From NCBI GenBank assembly GCA_027013815.1, contig JALWFY010000082.1, forward strand, positions 1 through 44,082: 44,082 nt of DNA. Reading direction: 5' to 3'. Every line of letters starts with the position of its first letter. The stretch's first letter is position 1. The position numbers and the translations under genes were made by a program. Below are positions 24,552-37,842 of the stretch, in pieces. The notes beneath the pieces are model-generated. The model was given only the letters and a program-made list of their open reading frames with translations. It was not told where the DNA came from and searched no databases. The stretch is from Desulfohalobiaceae bacterium (GTDB lineage Bacteria; Desulfobacterota; Desulfovibrionia; Desulfovibrionales; Desulfothermaceae).

Positions 24552-25637
24552 TTAATCATTTGAGCCTAGGCCATATTTATAAAAAGCAGCACAACTGCCC
24601 TCAGTTGAAACCATACATGGCCCAACTGGACTTAATGGAGTACATTTTTTGCCAAATAATGGGCATTTGTCTGGAGATATCTTACCCTGCAATACCTCTC
24701 CACACCTACATCCCTTTGGTTCTTTAACATCTTGAAATTTCAAATCAAATCTTTTTTTTGCATCAAATTTTGAATATTTATCTGAGATCTCCAATCCACT
24801 CCCTTCGATTGTCCCTATACCCCTCCAAAGGCCATCATGGGGCCTAAATACCTCACTTATTATCTCCTGGGCCCTTTTATTCCCCTCTGCCTTTACTGCA
24901 CGAGTATATTGATTTAAAATCCTTACATTTCCTCCTATGTCCATCTTTATCATCAAGTATATTGCTTGTAATATATCTATTGCCTCAAAACCAGAAATAA
25001 CAGCAGGTATATTGAATTCTTTGGCCAAGAATTCATATGGTTTTACACCAATTACAGTGGACACATGTCCTGGTAACAAAAATCCATGGATCTCTATATC
25101 CTTTGAAGTAACCAGAAACCTCAATGCCGGGGGAACCAATTTATGACACGACAAAACACTAAAATTTTCAATCCCCATCTTTTGAGCCTGGACTATTGTA
25201 GCACCTACTGTAGGCACAGTGGTCTCAAAACCAATACCCCAAAAAACCACCTCTTTATCTGGATTTTCAATTGCAATCTTTAAGCTATCCAATGGAGAAT
25301 AACATATTTCAATTTTCGCCCCTTTCGCCCTAAGTTCTTTTAAGGTCATACCCCTATGGTCTGGCACCCTCATCATATCCCCAAATATGGTGAGTACCAC
25401 ATCTTTTTGCTCTGCCAGATCCATGCCCAGGGCAATCTCAGCAGGATGAGTGACGCATACAGGACATCCGGGACCAGAAACATGCTTTAATTTATCTGAA
25501 AATAAAGAGCGAAGACCAGTTCTAAATATTGCCACAGTATGAGTCCCGCACACCTCCATAAACCTAAATGGAGCTGACAAAAGTCCATCTATTTCCTGTA
25601 AAAGTGTATTTATCTCTTGTCTTTCATTTGATTTCAA
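24552..25637 (-). CDS. hypD: Hydrogenase maturation protein HypD
   Basis: 361-residue Fe-S scaffold that, with HypC, assembles the Fe(CN)2CO unit of NiFe hydrogenases. It shows EVCGTHT (Cys30), GPGCPVCVTH (Cys58 and Cys61), GFETTVP, GFLLPGHVS, and the C-terminal cluster region GCRCGEVLQGK and CPLFGKKC, with GPCMVSTEGSCAA. All expected cysteines are present. It is placed 11 bases after argB, an unrelated arginine gene, and 71 bases before hypE. Confidence 0.94.
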   Translation of the reverse strand: MKSNERQEINTLLQEIDGLLSAPFRFMEVCGTHTVAIFRTGLRSLFSDKLKHVSGPGCPVCVTHPAEIALGMDLAEQKDVVLTIFGDMMRVPDHRGMTLKELRAKGAKIEICYSPLDSLKIAIENPDKEVVFWGIGFETTVPTVGATIVQAQKMGIENFSVLSCHKLVPPALRFLVTSKDIEIHGFLLPGHVSTVIGVKPYEFLAKEFNIPAVISGFEAIDILQAIYLMIKMDIGGNVRILNQYTRAVKAEGNKRAQEIISEVFRPHDGLWRGIGTIEGSGLEISDKYSKFDAKKRFDLKFQDVKEPKGCRCGEVLQGKISPDKCPLFGKKCTPLSPVGPCMVSTEGSCAAFYKYGLGSND

Positions 25638-26611: not shown

Positions 26612-28603
26612 TTATGCAGCAGCAGCATCCAACTCACGTCTTGCAGCCATATCAAAGAGGATCCTTTCCCTGGCCTTATCAATTCCAAGGGCCTTTCTCT
26701 TCTTATCAATGTGTGCAATCATAAGTTTTGCCATTTCATATGGATCTTCTGCAAATCCCCAATAACCAAGCCCCATTTTTTCCAATCCACCAAATAAGAG
26801 GTCATGGAACTTAGTGTTCTTGGTAGTTGGGAAACTTACTCCAAATACTGTGTATACACCTGATGCAACAAAGTACTGACCAATAGATATGGCCTTTTCA
26901 CTCATCCATTCTGGTGCTGCACCTGCAGCTGGAAGATCTGCAATGGAATTGCCAAGGCCACCTGTCTTTACGACCTCTGCAGCAGCTATTAAAATACGAC
27001 TATTATCAACACATGAACCCATCCCAAGTACAGGTGGCATACCAACAGTCTCACACACTTCAGCAAGTCCTGAACCTGCAAGGTGAGCAGCCTCTGGGAC
27101 TAAGAGACCTGCCTTGGCAAGGGATATTTGTGAACACCCAGTCTGAAGTACAAGCACGTCTTTTTTAATGAGCTCTTTTACTAGCTCAACGTGAACATAA
27201 TCGTGTTTTACCCTTGGATTGGTACAACCAACTACCCCGGCAAGTCCACGAATCCTACCATTTATAATATTTTCATTTAAAGGCTTATAAGATGCTCTAA
27301 ATGTCCCACCAAGCATATATTTGATGTATTCATGAGAAAAACCGTGGATACCAGGATTTACTATTTGAGGAATCTCTACCTTTACCTTTCTATTCTTGAA
27401 CCTGGCAATTGCCCTCATAACTATCTCATCAGTACATTTCCTTGGCTCATCTTCTTTTAAAGGAATATGTGTTGTGCCTTCTATCTTTGCCCTTGGATTG
27501 GTGGTGAACAAAAATGTATTATAGCACTTGGCAACTGTGCTAAGGCCTTGCATAATACATTGTACATCAACACCCATAGCATCAACTGCACCAGTGGCCA
27601 GTACATATTCAGTGGAGAGGAAATTACCTGCATGGGGTATCCCATGCCTGGACAACACCTCAGCACCAGAGCAGCACATACCCGCAATATTTATACCCTT
27701 GGCCCCTGCGTCCTTTGCTGCCTGTATAAGTGCTGGATCATTTACAGATGCAAGCATAGATTCAAAGAGGTTTGGTTCATGACCATGGATTATCACGTTT
27801 ACATAATCTTCTTTTAATACCCCCATATTCACATTGGCCAAAATAGGAGTTGGGGTTCCATACAATATATCAGATAGTTCAGTGGCCACCATAGAACCGC
27901 CCCAACCATCAGACAGGGCACACCTGCTAAACTGTAAGGTCAAATTTTCATAGTGTTGATCCACACCAATATGTGTCCTGTGCATGGTCTCCATAATCTC
28001 TCTCATTGCACCTCTCGGCACAATACCTAGTTTTCTCCATGTCTCCAAGGTAGCCTCAGGAACCCTTTTGGCAAATGGGATCTCTCCCTCTACCTGGGTG
28101 TATGTCCTTTCTAACTCTTCATATAAATCCTTTGCTATCTCTTCTATAGACCTTCCCTCTGTCTCAATATCTATAGCCTTGGCCACTTCAATTAATTTAA
28201 TAGGGTCCTTTATCCTATAGTCTGTGATCTTTCCATTCACCACTTCCCTAAAGAGATCCAACATTGCCATACCATGATCTGTATGAGCTGCTGCACCACT
28301 TGCAACCATCCTGGAAAAGTTCCTTGCTTGAATAGTATCTATTGTAGCACCACATACACCTGTCTTTCCATATGGATCCTTTGCATTTAATCTGCATGGT
28401 CCCATGGAGCAATGCTTACAACAAGCAGAATCAGACCCAATAGGACATGGCTTCATATCAGCAGCACGTTCAAATACTGTGGACACTCCATCCTTGTGAG
28501 TCTTCTCAAGCATCTGGGCAGTGGCTTCACAAATAGTAAACTCCTGAGGAGAAAATTCCTTTGCCTTTGCACTTGCTTTACCTTTTACGGCCTTTTTTTC
28601 CAT
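26612..28603 (-). CDS. cooS: Anaerobic carbon monoxide dehydrogenase catalytic subunit
   Basis: Nickel CO dehydrogenase, 663 residues from this start, interconverting CO and CO2 in the cytoplasm. Cluster D/B cysteines occur with the classic spacing CX7C, then CX2CX4CX13C (from CPIGSDSACC to GVCGA, residues 53-84). By spacing, all cluster C ligands are present: His275 (HGHEP), Cys310 (AGMCC), Cys349 (DVQC), Cys460 (GVVGC), Cys490 (QTGCS) and Cys531 (GSCVDNS). An upstream in-frame ATG at 28636 exists, but GGGAGG fits the ATG at 28603. No cooF, cooC or acetyl-CoA synthase gene is beside it, so its electron partner lies elsewhere. A promoter and a Rex-like site lie upstream. Confidence 0.95.
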   Translation of the reverse strand: MEKKAVKGKASAKAKEFSPQEFTICEATAQMLEKTHKDGVSTVFERAADMKPCPIGSDSACCKHCSMGPCRLNAKDPYGKTGVCGATIDTIQARNFSRMVASGAAAHTDHGMAMLDLFREVVNGKITDYRIKDPIKLIEVAKAIDIETEGRSIEEIAKDLYEELERTYTQVEGEIPFAKRVPEATLETWRKLGIVPRGAMREIMETMHRTHIGVDQHYENLTLQFSRCALSDGWGGSMVATELSDILYGTPTPILANVNMGVLKEDYVNVIIHGHEPNLFESMLASVNDPALIQAAKDAGAKGINIAGMCCSGAEVLSRHGIPHAGNFLSTEYVLATGAVDAMGVDVQCIMQGLSTVAKCYNTFLFTTNPRAKIEGTTHIPLKEDEPRKCTDEIVMRAIARFKNRKVKVEIPQIVNPGIHGFSHEYIKYMLGGTFRASYKPLNENIINGRIRGLAGVVGCTNPRVKHDYVHVELVKELIKKDVLVLQTGCSQISLAKAGLLVPEAAHLAGSGLAEVCETVGMPPVLGMGSCVDNSRILIAAAEVVKTGGLGNSIADLPAAGAAPEWMSEKAISIGQYFVASGVYTVFGVSFPTTKNTKFHDLLFGGLEKMGLGYWGFAEDPYEMAKLMIAHIDKKRKALGIDKARERILFDMAARRELDAAAA

Positions 28604-28651
28604 ATAATCCTCCCTTATGGAACATTTAAAACCCAAATAATTTAACTATCT

Positions 28652-32270: not shown

Positions 32271-32693
32271 ATGAAAAGGCTACTCTTAAGTGTAGTTGTC
32301 TGTGCAATGGCAATCTGTTTGTATGATCTAACTAGCTTAAATGCCATGAAAATGCCAAAACAAATCCTAATGAATGCTTGCCAGGGAAAGACGAAAAACC
32401 CAGTCTATGCACCTGTGGATTTTCCACATCAAAAGCATATTAGATTAGGATGTAATGTTTGTCACCACAAATGGACAAATAAAAAAAATCCACCTAGGAC
32501 ATGTACTAGCAGTGGTTGTCATGACTTGTTAAGTGCCAAGGGAGCTCAGATGATGGCACAAAATTCTGCATATAATGCATTCCACAATAGGACAAGCAAA
32601 CATAGTTGTTTAGGTTGTCATAAACTAAAGAAAAAGGAACATGTGGCCGCAGGCCCCATTGCCTGTAATAAGTGTCATATAAAAAACAAATAA
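32271..32693 (+). CDS. Tetraheme cytochrome c3 (class III)
   Basis: 140-residue periplasmic electron carrier with a signal peptide (about residues 1-25). Four heme sites are visible: CNVCH (61-65), CTSSGCH (78-84, the CX4CH form), CLGCH (113-117) and CNKCH (132-136), with FPHQKH (51-56) and further histidines as distal ligands. In Desulfovibrio the type I cytochrome c3 takes electrons from periplasmic hydrogenases. AAAGGAGG precedes the ATG. Its placement after hemL is a link between heme synthesis and use. Confidence 0.92.
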   Translation: MKRLLLSVVVCAMAICLYDLTSLNAMKMPKQILMNACQGKTKNPVYAPVDFPHQKHIRLGCNVCHHKWTNKKNPPRTCTSSGCHDLLSAKGAQMMAQNSAYNAFHNRTSKHSCLGCHKLKKKEHVAAGPIACNKCHIKNK

Positions 32694-34770: not shown

Positions 34771-34971
34771 TCAATGGATAGAAAAATAGACTATAATAAG
34801 TCCTATAATTATTATCCATAACCCCATATTTCTCAAAAAAGTAGGTGGGAATTGTTCTAAGTTTTCTAAAAGTTTTTTAATTCTTAAGGGAAATAAAAAA
34901 TATAACATCCCCTCTAAAATAAAGGCAAGCCCTAAGGCACAAAAAAATAATTGTAGTGGTGTAACAACCAT
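34771..34971 (-). CDS. DUF2065 family small membrane protein
   Basis: 66-residue protein with two membrane segments (LFFCALGLAFILEGMLYFLFP and LWIIIIGLIIVYFS) joined by a basic loop RIKKLLENLEQFPPTFLRNMG; this is the DUF2065 pattern, of unknown function. The frame is open further upstream to a TTG at 35016, but that codon falls in the loop of a strong hairpin (34997-35033), so the internal ATG at 34971 is preferred and gives the usual family length. It is convergent with menG. Confidence 0.75.
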   Translation of the reverse strand: MVVTPLQLFFCALGLAFILEGMLYFLFPLRIKKLLENLEQFPPTFLRNMGLWIIIIGLIIVYFSIH

Positions 34972-34996
34972 AAGGAATGACTTTGTTAATATTTTA

Positions 34997-35033
34997 ATTC
35001 CATTGCCAGTCCTCAATCTCCTGGCAATGGAAT
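34997..35033. terminator. Hairpin after the MetV-like gene
   Basis: ATTCCATTGCCAG (34997-35009) and CTGGCAATGGAAT (35021-35033) are perfect complements, a 13-base stem with an 11-base loop, starting 11 bases past the MetV-like stop on the minus strand. An AT-rich stretch without a clean T run follows. Confidence 0.75.
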
Positions 35034-35043
35034 AGATTTATAC

Positions 35044-35721
35044 TTATCTCATATATCTTTCTTCATAACCATATTGAACAATAGTCCTCTGGATCTGATT
35101 TTTCCATTCTACAGGAGGATGTATCTTCAATATATCTTCCAATCTATTTTGTTCCTTGAGCCTATTATATATTTCATACCATGCACAGGGGATATTGGGA
35201 TTTACTTCACACATACCCTTGTTAGTACCACCACAGGGTCCATTAAAAAGGCTCTTGGCACATCTAGTCACTGGACATATGCCACCTGTATAACCAATAA
35301 CACAATCCCCACATGCCCTGCACCTCTCTTCATAAAGTCCGATATCCCTATCTATCCCTATGGCTATGGTATTTACAGCAGGGAATACAGGTATTAGAGG
35401 AAATTTTTCTGCAATTAATTGGGTACCAGCAGAGCAAGACATTGTTAGTATACAGTCATAACCTCCCTGTTTTACCCTATCCTCTAAATTGAGAAAACAT
35501 TTTTCATTACAGGCCCTTTCAACTGTATATCCTGCTATTTCTTTGTCTATACCATTTTGGTTTAAAAAGATTTTAATCTCTTCGTTTAAGATATTTATCT
35601 CTCTTTGCCCACCACCAAGACATACAGATGCACAACCACCACATCCCACATTTAAGATATTCTTATATTTCTCAATACATCCAAGTATTTCATCAAAGGG
35701 TTTTCTCTTTACCTTTATCAT
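35044..35721 (-). CDS. MetV-like protein (methylenetetrahydrofolate reductase C-terminal domain family)
   Basis: 225-residue protein with 16 cysteines, many in clusters: CGGCASVC (27-34), C71 and C75, Cys90, Cys96, and ERCRACGDCVIGYTGGICPVTRC with GPCGGTNKGMC near the end. This is the MTHFR-C (MetV) family, which in acetogens partners MetF, the methylene-THF reductase, and carries metal centres that pass electrons to it. No metF is nearby. AGGAGG lies before the ATG. It follows an Fe-S protein and a membrane protein in one operon, so electrons may come from or go to the membrane; that part is inferred. Confidence 0.85.
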   Translation of the reverse strand: MIKVKRKPFDEILGCIEKYKNILNVGCGGCASVCLGGGQREINILNEEIKIFLNQNGIDKEIAGYTVERACNEKCFLNLEDRVKQGGYDCILTMSCSAGTQLIAEKFPLIPVFPAVNTIAIGIDRDIGLYEERCRACGDCVIGYTGGICPVTRCAKSLFNGPCGGTNKGMCEVNPNIPCAWYEIYNRLKEQNRLEDILKIHPPVEWKNQIQRTIVQYGYEERYMR

Positions 35722-35777
35722 GTCTATCCTCCTGGAAAATTTTTTTTTATTTCTTAGCTATACACTCAGTTAACTAT

Positions 35778-36125
35778 TTAATCATATGTTTTAAAGACCC
35801 CATTTAATCTACAATAGTCTCTGGCAAGGGATATGAGCCATGGAATATCAATCCCAAGAGAACAATAACATCTTGTACATAAAACACATTTTTCCCACGC
35901 TATTTCCCTCACTTTTTCCAGTTCTTCTTTATTTAACCTACCCTTCTTTTTATAAATAAGTCCTATGGAATTTATCATCTTATAAGAAGGCATATATTCA
36001 GGGTCCTTATCTTTTGCCATGTATAAAAAACAACTCTGTGCACACATACCACATCTAGCACATACGGACATGGCCAGCTTTATTTTGGACTTATATTTTT
36101 TAAGGACCTCCCTATTCCAATCCAT
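35778..36125 (-). CDS. Two-cluster 4Fe-4S protein (HdrC-like)
   Basis: 115-residue soluble protein with two iron-sulfur motifs: C22-C25-C28-C32 (CARCGMCAQSC) and C80-C83-C86-C88 (CVLCTRCYC, followed by GIDIPW). The layout of two clusters separated by a helical stretch is that of HdrC-type and GlpC-type subunits that bridge a membrane cytochrome and a soluble enzyme. In the second motif the usual CxxxCP is replaced by CxC, which is unusual. GGGGGTG precedes the ATG. It lies 45 bases after the membrane protein and 56 before the MetV-like gene. Confidence 0.82.
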   Translation of the reverse strand: MDWNREVLKKYKSKIKLAMSVCARCGMCAQSCFLYMAKDKDPEYMPSYKMINSIGLIYKKKGRLNKEELEKVREIAWEKCVLCTRCYCSLGIDIPWLISLARDYCRLNGVFKTYD

Positions 36126-36170
36126 GAGTTCACCCCCTAAGATTTATAATATACTGTACAATTATTTATA

Positions 36171-36845
36171 CTAGGTCCACACCCTATTTCCTGTCTTAAA
36201 AAAAGAATACTCACTTTTTATAAAAAACCTATTTAAAAAGAAAAATATCATATGCTTGAGTTTAGAAAAAGGTATACAGATAAGCATAATCTCTCCAGAA
36301 ATCATATGAATAATAATCATTGTCTTGTATGGAAAAATTTGATGATATGCCAAAAAACCAGTAAGATATGGAATAAATACAATCAAAAACATAAAAAAAT
36401 CTCCACCTGAAGTAATGGCCTTGATCTTTGAGACAAATAGACGTCTGTATAAAAAATATACTCCAAAGGCCAAGATCGTAATGGTGAGTATATCAGAAAC
36501 CCTCTCAGAAAAGGATGGCGGGAATATTCCCCAGGATTCCTGGATCAATATATTATGAGCTAATAAAAAAATTGGAGTTATTATAACCAAGATATGAAAT
36601 ATAGAAGTTAAGATGGTAAATACCGGCTCCATGGACCATGCACTCCCCTCCCACCTAGCCAATCTCTTTATATCTTCAGATGGATAAAGTGAGCTAATTT
36701 CCTTTTTAGAAGGAAGAGGGCCATATATCTTGGCTGGTTCTTGTTTTGTTGTATTTTTAAAAAAATAAACCACTTGATAGATAATCCCCAAGAAAAAAAT
36801 AATAAAAGAGACCAGTGCCAGTGGACCCCTCACTAATTCATACAT
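36171..36845 (-). CDS. Membrane cytochrome-b-like protein (NarI/DsrM/HdrE-like)
   Basis: 224-residue inner-membrane protein with five or six segments (about 8-29, 75-100, 113-131, 149-169, 174-197). Histidines inside or beside segments (FHILVI, AHNIL, YHQIF, IHMIS) could ligate heme b as in the NarI, DsrM, TmcC and HdrE group. A soluble loop at 30-70 precedes the second segment. GGAGG is six bases before the ATG. As first gene of the trio with Fe-S and MetV-like proteins, it is probably the quinone-reactive module. The family call rests on topology and context. Confidence 0.75.
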   Translation of the reverse strand: MYELVRGPLALVSFIIFFLGIIYQVVYFFKNTTKQEPAKIYGPLPSKKEISSLYPSEDIKRLARWEGSAWSMEPVFTILTSIFHILVIITPIFLLAHNILIQESWGIFPPSFSERVSDILTITILAFGVYFLYRRLFVSKIKAITSGGDFFMFLIVFIPYLTGFLAYHQIFPYKTMIIIHMISGEIMLICIPFSKLKHMIFFFLNRFFIKSEYSFFKTGNRVWT

Positions 36846-36892
36846 ATCTTACCTCCTCATCTTAAATAAAAGTCATTAAACCAGCATCTAAA

Positions 36893-37274: not shown

Positions 37275-37842
37275 CTATTTACCCAATAATGCATCCCTTA
37301 AATCTTTTTGTACACAATTGTCTGATATCCAGATCCCAAAAAGAGCCTTTTTAAAGTCCTGTCCTTTTATCAGCTTAAGTTCCTTACCATTTTTTATTGA
37401 ATGTACTCCTTCTCCTGGGACATAAATAAATTCAAACACATCGTGCTTTTTTATAGGTTCAGATTTAAACAAAGAAATAAACTCATCTATCCTGTGCTCC
37501 AATCCAGATAAATTCCCACCAGTGGACTTTTCGAACCCTTCTCTAGTAGCCTTTTCCATATTACTGCTACTTATTAACCTAGATATAATCTCTAGCCTAA
37601 TACCTACTGGCACATCTGAGTCTAAAATTTCATTGGCAGAAGAAGTTTTTTGTTTTACATATAACCCTGCAACATATAATTTTAAAAAAAAATTTTTTTC
37701 TTATTCCAGCACCATTTAAAATCAAAACTTGCTTGCCAGCCGGTATGCTATCAGGCAAAGTAACTCCCCCAATTTCAAAACCCATCACCATTGAAGGGAA
37801 TAATAAAAAAAATAGCATACCAAAAAACATTTTTCTTAGCAT
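37275..37842 (-). pseudogene. Chalcone-isomerase-like exported protein, split by a frameshift at a T9 run
   Basis: Two adjacent frames encode one protein. The upstream one (from ATG 37842) has a signal peptide (MLRKMFFGMLFFLLFPSMVMG), then FEIGGVTLPDSIPAGKQVLI and GAGIRKKFFF. At nine T on the minus strand (about 37684-37692) the frame is lost; removing one T restores KLYVAGLYVKQKTSSANEIL, which joins the downstream frame IRLEIISRLISSSNMEKATREGF ending at 37275. The joined 188-residue product fits the bacterial chalcone-isomerase-like family, of unclear, often periplasmic function. It may be a true mutation, a sequencing error, phase variation or transcriptional slippage. Confidence 0.85.

Follow-up and report, generated by a model that had tools for sequence, protein, structure and literature searches.

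Gene organization of the locus

The sequence analysed here, referred to as the window, is a stretch of 44,082 nucleotides that constitutes contig C82 of the draft genome of a Desulfohalobiaceae bacterium (G000; 2.59 Mb, 219 contigs, 95% complete). On its minus strand lie three intact, co-directional open reading frames, here called the trio, which are separated by intergenic gaps of 45 and 56 bp. An earlier, sequence-only reading of this DNA had described a MetV-like protein encoded in one operon with a membrane cytochrome and an Fe-S protein. Our analysis agrees with this gene arrangement, and the third product is assigned as MetV by PF12225. The features of the locus are as follows.

36171-36845, minus strand: TmcC/HmcE-type membrane cytochrome b, 224 aa (NCBIfam TmcC/HmcE), a predicted transmembrane electron conduit
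35778-36125, minus strand: short dicluster ferredoxin, 115 aa, equivalent to the N-terminal part of TmcB/HmcF and lacking the C-terminal CCG part
35044-35721, minus strand: MetV of the trio clade, 225 aa (PF12225), the presumed electron-entry subunit for MetF
36851..36858, minus strand: Shine-Dalgarno-like gaggaggt ahead of the first trio gene, read from the sequence
34771..35016, minus strand: DUF2065 small membrane protein (PF09838, 7.3e-18), downstream of the trio and co-directional with it

Every gene of the trio has a Shine-Dalgarno-like stretch (gaggaggt, gggggtg and aggagg, respectively). The DUF2065 gene keeps its position beside the MetV gene in G001, G009 and G010, and it was not observed at the trio loci compared from other families. 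Its product is possibly a passenger outside the trio core. Just past metV, an inverted repeat (CCATTGCCAG...CTGGCAATGG, 34998-35030) that is not followed by a T run overlaps the start of the listed DUF2065 open reading frame. Also upstream within the window, at a distance of 6-10 kb from the trio, are genes for a CO dehydrogenase catalytic subunit (26612-28636, minus strand; TIGR01702, 2e-173) and for the hydrogenase maturation protein HypD (24552-25637, minus strand). A chalcone isomerase-like gene (37275-37613, minus strand) is seemingly truncated, its 112 residues corresponding to positions 60-165 of the profile and its orthologue in G003 having 189 residues. A long A/T homopolymer lies near 37700, just upstream of this gene, and a frameshift or a sequencing error is possible there.

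Proteins encoded by the trio

The best NCBIfam models for the membrane protein were TmcC (1.6e-54) and HmcE (8.6e-47), with both matches falling under the curated cut-offs. The match to the Pfam NarI family was weak and at threshold. A profile of the membrane proteins of the trio module matched E. coli NarI at 4e-5, and the best PDB matches of the structure model were also NarI, again weak, with a TM score of about 0.42. DsrMK and HdrDE were considered as identities for the trio and rejected, their models matching far more weakly. The designation of this protein as NarI/DsrM-like is thus right as regards a membrane cytochrome, while the closer assignment is TmcC/HmcE, the matches to NarI and DsrK being weak. 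His84, His97, His180 and His198, the putative heme ligands, are invariant in all 80 homologues compared, 14 of which come from the trio module and 66 from ordinary Tmc/Hmc. A second TmcC homologue was not found in G000 at E<=0.01.

The 115-residue Fe-S protein covers only positions 46-151 of the 457 in the HmcF model (7.3e-28) and 32-137 of the 430 in the TmcB model (6.2e-25; both NCBIfam), and the C-terminal CCG part of TmcB/HmcF is absent. On the basis of this coverage, the protein, which had been called HdrC-like and is indeed an Fe-S protein, is better named the N-terminal ferredoxin part of TmcB/HmcF. Its first cluster motif is normal. The second, CVLCTRCYCSLGIDIP, has the pattern CxxCxxCxC and is two residues shorter. 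This odd CxC cluster had been pointed out previously and proved to be real; C..C..CYC is present in 45 of the 45 short proteins in which the region is visible and in 0 of 75 full-length TmcB/HmcF proteins, which without exception (75/75) contain CxxCxxCxxxCP. Because the split is complete, the CYC second motif is, as judged from these sequences, a diagnostic mark of the trio module. A Tmc or Hmc complex was rejected as the identity of the trio, as a full-length TmcB/HmcF was not found in G000.

The MetV of the trio matches PF12225 at 9.8e-38 and is 53% identical to the canonical MetV of the same genome. Trio MetVs within the Desulfohalobiaceae display 66-80% identity to one another, and the cluster cysteines are kept. 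In the MetV tree, all 44 trio sequences group together (support 95/92) as one clade that is present in 96% of the bootstrap trees, and the coupling of MetV to the conduit therefore probably arose only once. Neither a TmcC gene nor a gene for the Fe-S protein was found beside non-trio MetV genes (0 of 50 loci). As for structural information, neither the MetV profile nor the Fe-S protein profile matched a solved structure. The C-terminal half of the MetV structure model is of low confidence, and its fold matches in the PDB are meaningless. The trio MetV at L114:4612-5211 (G307) is without a 27-residue cysteine-rich stretch, in frame, representing either a real variant or an assembly error.

Distribution of the trio

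Within the family, the trio is present in G000, G001, G003, G009 and G010. G002 has it as well, but its genes contain frameshifts, and no trio was found in G004-G008. At the G002 locus (L046, contig C10), the neighbours of the trio also carry many frameshifts, which is more suggestive of a low-quality assembly than of pseudogenes.

The conserved stretches of the Fe-S protein were searched across 84,980 species genomes, and 80 loci were kept. The short protein is encoded at 11 of these, all of which adjoin genes for MetV and a TmcC-like protein, whereas the other 69 encode full-length TmcB/HmcF and have no MetV. Seven of the 11 short-form loci are from Desulfobacterales-type genomes (Desulfosudis, Desulfococcus, Desulfobacterium and others). 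One genome, G304, harbours two further copies of the trio (L247 and L248). In a sample of 297 genomes of the window's class, which did not take in every family member, the short form was found among the matches listed only in G000 and G003. It is present in 33 of 395 genomes of the phylum, G000 counted.

For the Desulfobacterota in total, MetV adjoins the short Fe-S gene at 45 of 47 loci and the full-length gene at 0 of 75. One of the two short-form loci devoid of MetV, L286, lies at a contig edge. The other, L306, is intact and situated in a CODH/ACS operon (L306:2-6186, G556), in which the TmcC-like gene and the CYC gene are found directly 3' of genes for acsB, a corrinoid protein and a pterin-binding methyltransferase, with no MetV nearby; this context points to the Wood-Ljungdahl pathway. 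Taking into account that the gene set of the trio is found again, in shuffled order, in a dozen or more families across the phylum, we judge from these neighbourhoods that the association is far above chance.

Linkage to MetF and to periplasmic cytochromes

The sequence-only reading had suggested looking for co-occurrence of metF with the trio. Such co-occurrence was observed in relatives. Among the 32 short-protein loci of the phylum sample, MetV is encoded at 30 and MetF, in the same co-directional group, at 27; with the addition of L114, MetF is found in the same operon at 28 loci in all. Two gene orders are common, MetF-TmcC-FeS-c3(4 hemes)-MetV and TmcC-FeS-MetV-MetF-cytochrome (16-17 hemes). 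In the Desulfobacterales we found the orders c3-MetV-TmcC-FeS-MetF (L114), TmcC-FeS-c3-MetV and MetV-TmcC-FeS. The gene order thus varies while the content stays. Such a pattern is typical of functional units and suggests that the trio forms one with the MetF and cytochrome genes.

A TmcA-like tetraheme c3 is encoded at 22 of the 32 loci of the phylum sample. Cytochromes with 16 or 17 hemes are encoded at six according to our distance rule, and at eight if L298 and L300 are added; the two that were scored (415 and 463 bits) both pass the HmcA cut-off of 400. A nearby cytochrome c gene was not found at the window trio or at L109, L110 and L302. As for metF, it is absent beside the trio at all six Desulfohalobiaceae loci and also at L273, L275 and L276. 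In the MetF tree, the MetFs from trio loci are intermingled with hdrA-linked MetFs and with the orphan MetF2s, without separation by partner.

Several operons contain additional genes. An additional MetF-like gene that is divergent (290-300 aa) is present beside MetV at L279:3651-4544, L280:7828-8700 and others, and a protein of about 525 residues, resembling methylene-THF reductase (MTHFR) and carrying a MetV-like cysteine-rich tail, is encoded in the operon beside MetV at L281:3245-4816 and L290:265-1851. At L280:604-4241, genes for NuoE-, NuoF- and NuoG/Fdh-like small subunits are situated directly 5' of a MetF-TmcC-FeS-c3-MetV operon. These might possibly provide an input for NADH or formate.

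C1 genes in the genome harbouring the window

G000 contains two metF and two metV genes. The pair metV1-metF1 is on contig C114 together with two HdrA-like genes and genes of the CODH-maturation type. The second gene, metF2, lies at the end of contig C116, with a tetraheme cytochrome gene and a phospholipase-like open reading frame upstream. This cytochrome, 0.9 kb upstream of metF2, passes the TmcA model (161 bits, cut-off 114), and a similar tetraheme c3 is found upstream of metF2 in G003, G004 and G010. An acetyl-CoA synthase gene is also present in G000, cut by a contig end. Beside the window trio there is neither a MetF nor an Hdr gene, and the trio operon itself contains no TmcA or HmcA gene. 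In the window organism, the partner of the trio MetV is most likely MetF2. As TmcA adjoins metF2, and as no other TmcC and no full-length TmcB/HmcF were found in the genome, we infer that the TmcA and TmcC-type parts of G000 accompany MetF2 and MetV2.

The window contains a further tetraheme cytochrome c3 gene (32271-32693, plus strand), located near hemL and the siroheme decarboxylase gene ahbB, whose product is 53% identical to the c3 encoded at the equivalent place in G009. This cytochrome was considered as a partner of the trio and rejected, scoring only 34 bits against the TmcA model as opposed to the 161 of the c3 beside metF2.

The relatives display various combinations of these genes. 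In G009, the trio is present and a MetF2 orthologue was not found, while in G004, TmcA-MetF2 is present and MetV was not found; both are incomplete metagenome-assembled genomes. In G005, a MetF2-like gene is present in the absence of the trio.

Two observations had been named beforehand as arguments against a role of the trio in methylene-THF reduction, namely a canonical metV beside metF elsewhere in the genome, and relatives that have the same C1 pathway and no trio. Both were made. A canonical metV-metF pair exists on C114 with the two HdrA-like genes, and G005, G006 and G007 possess acetyl-CoA synthase and are devoid of the trio. Neither outcome turns out to be decisive, as the wider comparison overrides them. 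We rejected the canonical metV-metF neighbours as a disproof because MetF is co-operonic with the trio at 28 other loci, and the proposal of a membrane-linked path to methylene-THF reduction stands in outline in spite of the two observations. The coexistence of the canonical metV-metF-hdrA operon with the trio, along with the relatives that bear acetyl-CoA synthase and have no trio, indicates that the trio is a second, optional system beside the canonical one.

Proposed electron path and alternative explanations

The Tmc and Hmc complexes transfer electrons through the membrane, with periplasmic cytochromes c at one end and, at the other, a cytoplasmic CCG protein that is thought to act on DsrC (PMC10553843). 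We consider it very likely that such a transmembrane conduit has been re-targeted from DsrC to MetVF, resulting in a membrane-bound methylene-THF reductase of which the trio would supply the membrane part and the MetV subunit. The CCG part would have been lost and MetV would take its place at the cytoplasmic end. The remaining N-terminal ferredoxin, with its second cluster reshaped, would hand electrons to MetV and then to the flavin of MetF. The whole chain would run from a periplasmic TmcA/HmcA-type cytochrome c and/or menaquinone to the two b hemes of the TmcC-like protein, from these to the pair of [4Fe-4S] clusters in the short Fe-S protein and on to the MetV clusters, and finally via MetF to methylene-THF/methyl-THF, each step being open to both directions. 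The formation of a complex, its cofactor content, the electron path, its direction and the coupling to energy conservation are predicted here from gene content and sequence.

In the reductive direction, electrons from the oxidation of periplasmic H2 or formate would reduce methylene-THF inside the cell, a process that would be electrogenic. In the oxidative direction, during acetyl-CoA oxidation, electrons from methyl-THF would pass to menaquinone or cytochrome c3. Menaquinone has a potential of about -74 mV, and the oxidation of methyl-THF by it corresponds to roughly -24 kJ/mol per electron pair. The E0' of the methylene-THF/methyl-THF couple is -200 mV (PMC9430772), and as a result both directions are downhill, the reduction of methylene-THF by H2-derived electrons via c3 as well as the oxidation of methyl-THF by menaquinone.

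Candidates for the electron partner of the conduit are periplasmic cytochrome c3 and menaquinone, which may also act together. As a TmcA-like or HmcA-like periplasmic cytochrome recurs at the trio loci, the c3 pool appears at least as likely a partner as the quinone, alone or together with menaquinone. The sequence-only reading had suggested a coupling to the quinone pool. It is conceivable, though we tend not to favour it, that menaquinone is the only electron partner of the TmcC-like cytochrome b and that periplasmic cytochromes are not required, a variant of our proposal with a different partner. The protein is of the NarI-like diheme fold family, for which quinol oxidation is known, the trio loci of the window, L109, L110 and L302 have no cytochrome c gene nearby, and a quinone-reactive MTHFR has been measured in membranes of Thermacetogenium phaeum (PMC6895022). 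These points have to be weighed against the TmcA-like or HmcA-like cytochrome found in most trio operons, and against TmcA adjoining metF2 in the window's own genome.

The absence of metF beside the trio at all six Desulfohalobiaceae loci, shared with L273, L275 and L276, raises a separate question concerning this family. Here the trio MetV might serve another enzyme or substrate, such as a MetF-like protein or a methyltransferase, with the link to methylene-THF lost once metF had left the operon. We regard this as unlikely in view of the strong conservation of MetV in the family (66-80% identity with the cluster cysteines retained), the orphan metF2 present in most trio genomes of the family, in several cases beside TmcA, and the acetyl-CoA synthase that these genomes carry. 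That the trio is a degenerate or partial Tmc/Hmc complex still serving sulfite reduction via DsrC, with metV adjacent by chance, would account for the homology of its TmcC-like and Fe-S proteins to Tmc/Hmc subunits, but is highly improbable given the absent CCG part, the specific and uniform alteration of the second cluster motif (45/45 versus 0/75), and the adjacency of MetV at 45 of 47 loci and of MetF in 28 operons.

Returning to the re-targeted conduit, the module is likely to represent a respiratory methylene-THF reductase of the Desulfobacterota that has so far gone undescribed, in which a Tmc/Hmc conduit would have been permanently diverted away from sulfite reduction and into the service of the Wood-Ljungdahl pathway.

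Relation to known systems and significance

Relatives are known for all the individual parts of the module, and what appears to be new is their combination. With the Tmc complex of Desulfovibrio (TmcABCD), the trio shares a TmcC-type diheme subunit, the N-terminal ferredoxin part of TmcB and a TmcA-type tetraheme c3, the latter encoded in the operon in relatives of the trio and elsewhere in G000. It differs in having no TmcB CCG part, in its altered second motif, and in having MetV (and MetF) instead. Similarly, the trio has in common with the Hmc complex (HmcABCDEF) an HmcE-like membrane subunit and the N-terminal part of HmcF, and in one group of its relatives there is an HmcA-type 16-heme cytochrome that exceeds the NCBIfam cut-off. 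In contrast to Hmc, a full-length HmcF is missing, MetV-MetF is added, and HmcB, HmcC and HmcD were not seen beside the trio. DsrMK and NarGHI modules resemble the trio in that their membrane subunit is of the same fold family and has two pairs of heme-ligand histidines, but their catalytic partner differs, and the trio sequence matches DsrK and NarI weakly.

On the MetVF side, the core of MetV and MetF is shared with MetVF-HdrABC-MvhD of Moorella and Sporomusa (PMC5861303, PMC9430772). That system relies on soluble HdrABC-MvhD, whereas the trio itself encodes an integral cytochrome b and a dicluster protein, and an Hdr-linked MetVF is encoded separately in the window's genome. MetVF-RnfC2 of Acetobacterium woodii likewise combines the MetV-MetF core with an extra subunit for electron input, this being NADH via RnfC2 in place of the membrane cytochrome of the trio.

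In Sporomusa, the MTHFR was found in 2022 to be a membrane-associated MetVF that works with H2, and its membrane-integral partner was stated as unidentified (PMC9430772). For acetate oxidisers, the methyl-THF electrons at -200 mV are a recognised energetic barrier (PMC6895022). The papers on sulfate reducers that we consulted (including PMC10553843) place metF with Wood-Ljungdahl genes or HdrABC and mention no membrane partner. A description of MetV linked to TmcC/HmcE was not found in open-access full text.

The trio module offers a dedicated and genetically linked membrane subunit, together with a periplasmic cytochrome, in many families of the Desulfobacterota, and the question of the membrane MTHFR thereby becomes testable with membranes of cultured sulfate reducers. 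For annotation, the presence of C..C..CYC in a short TmcB-like protein encoded beside MetV can be used as a marker of genes that may otherwise pass as fragments of Tmc or Hmc. In 1977 it was already proposed that a chemiosmotic chain might have methylene-THF as its terminal acceptor. If the reading presented here is true, the methylene-THF/methyl-THF couple would be a site of chemiosmotic energy conservation.
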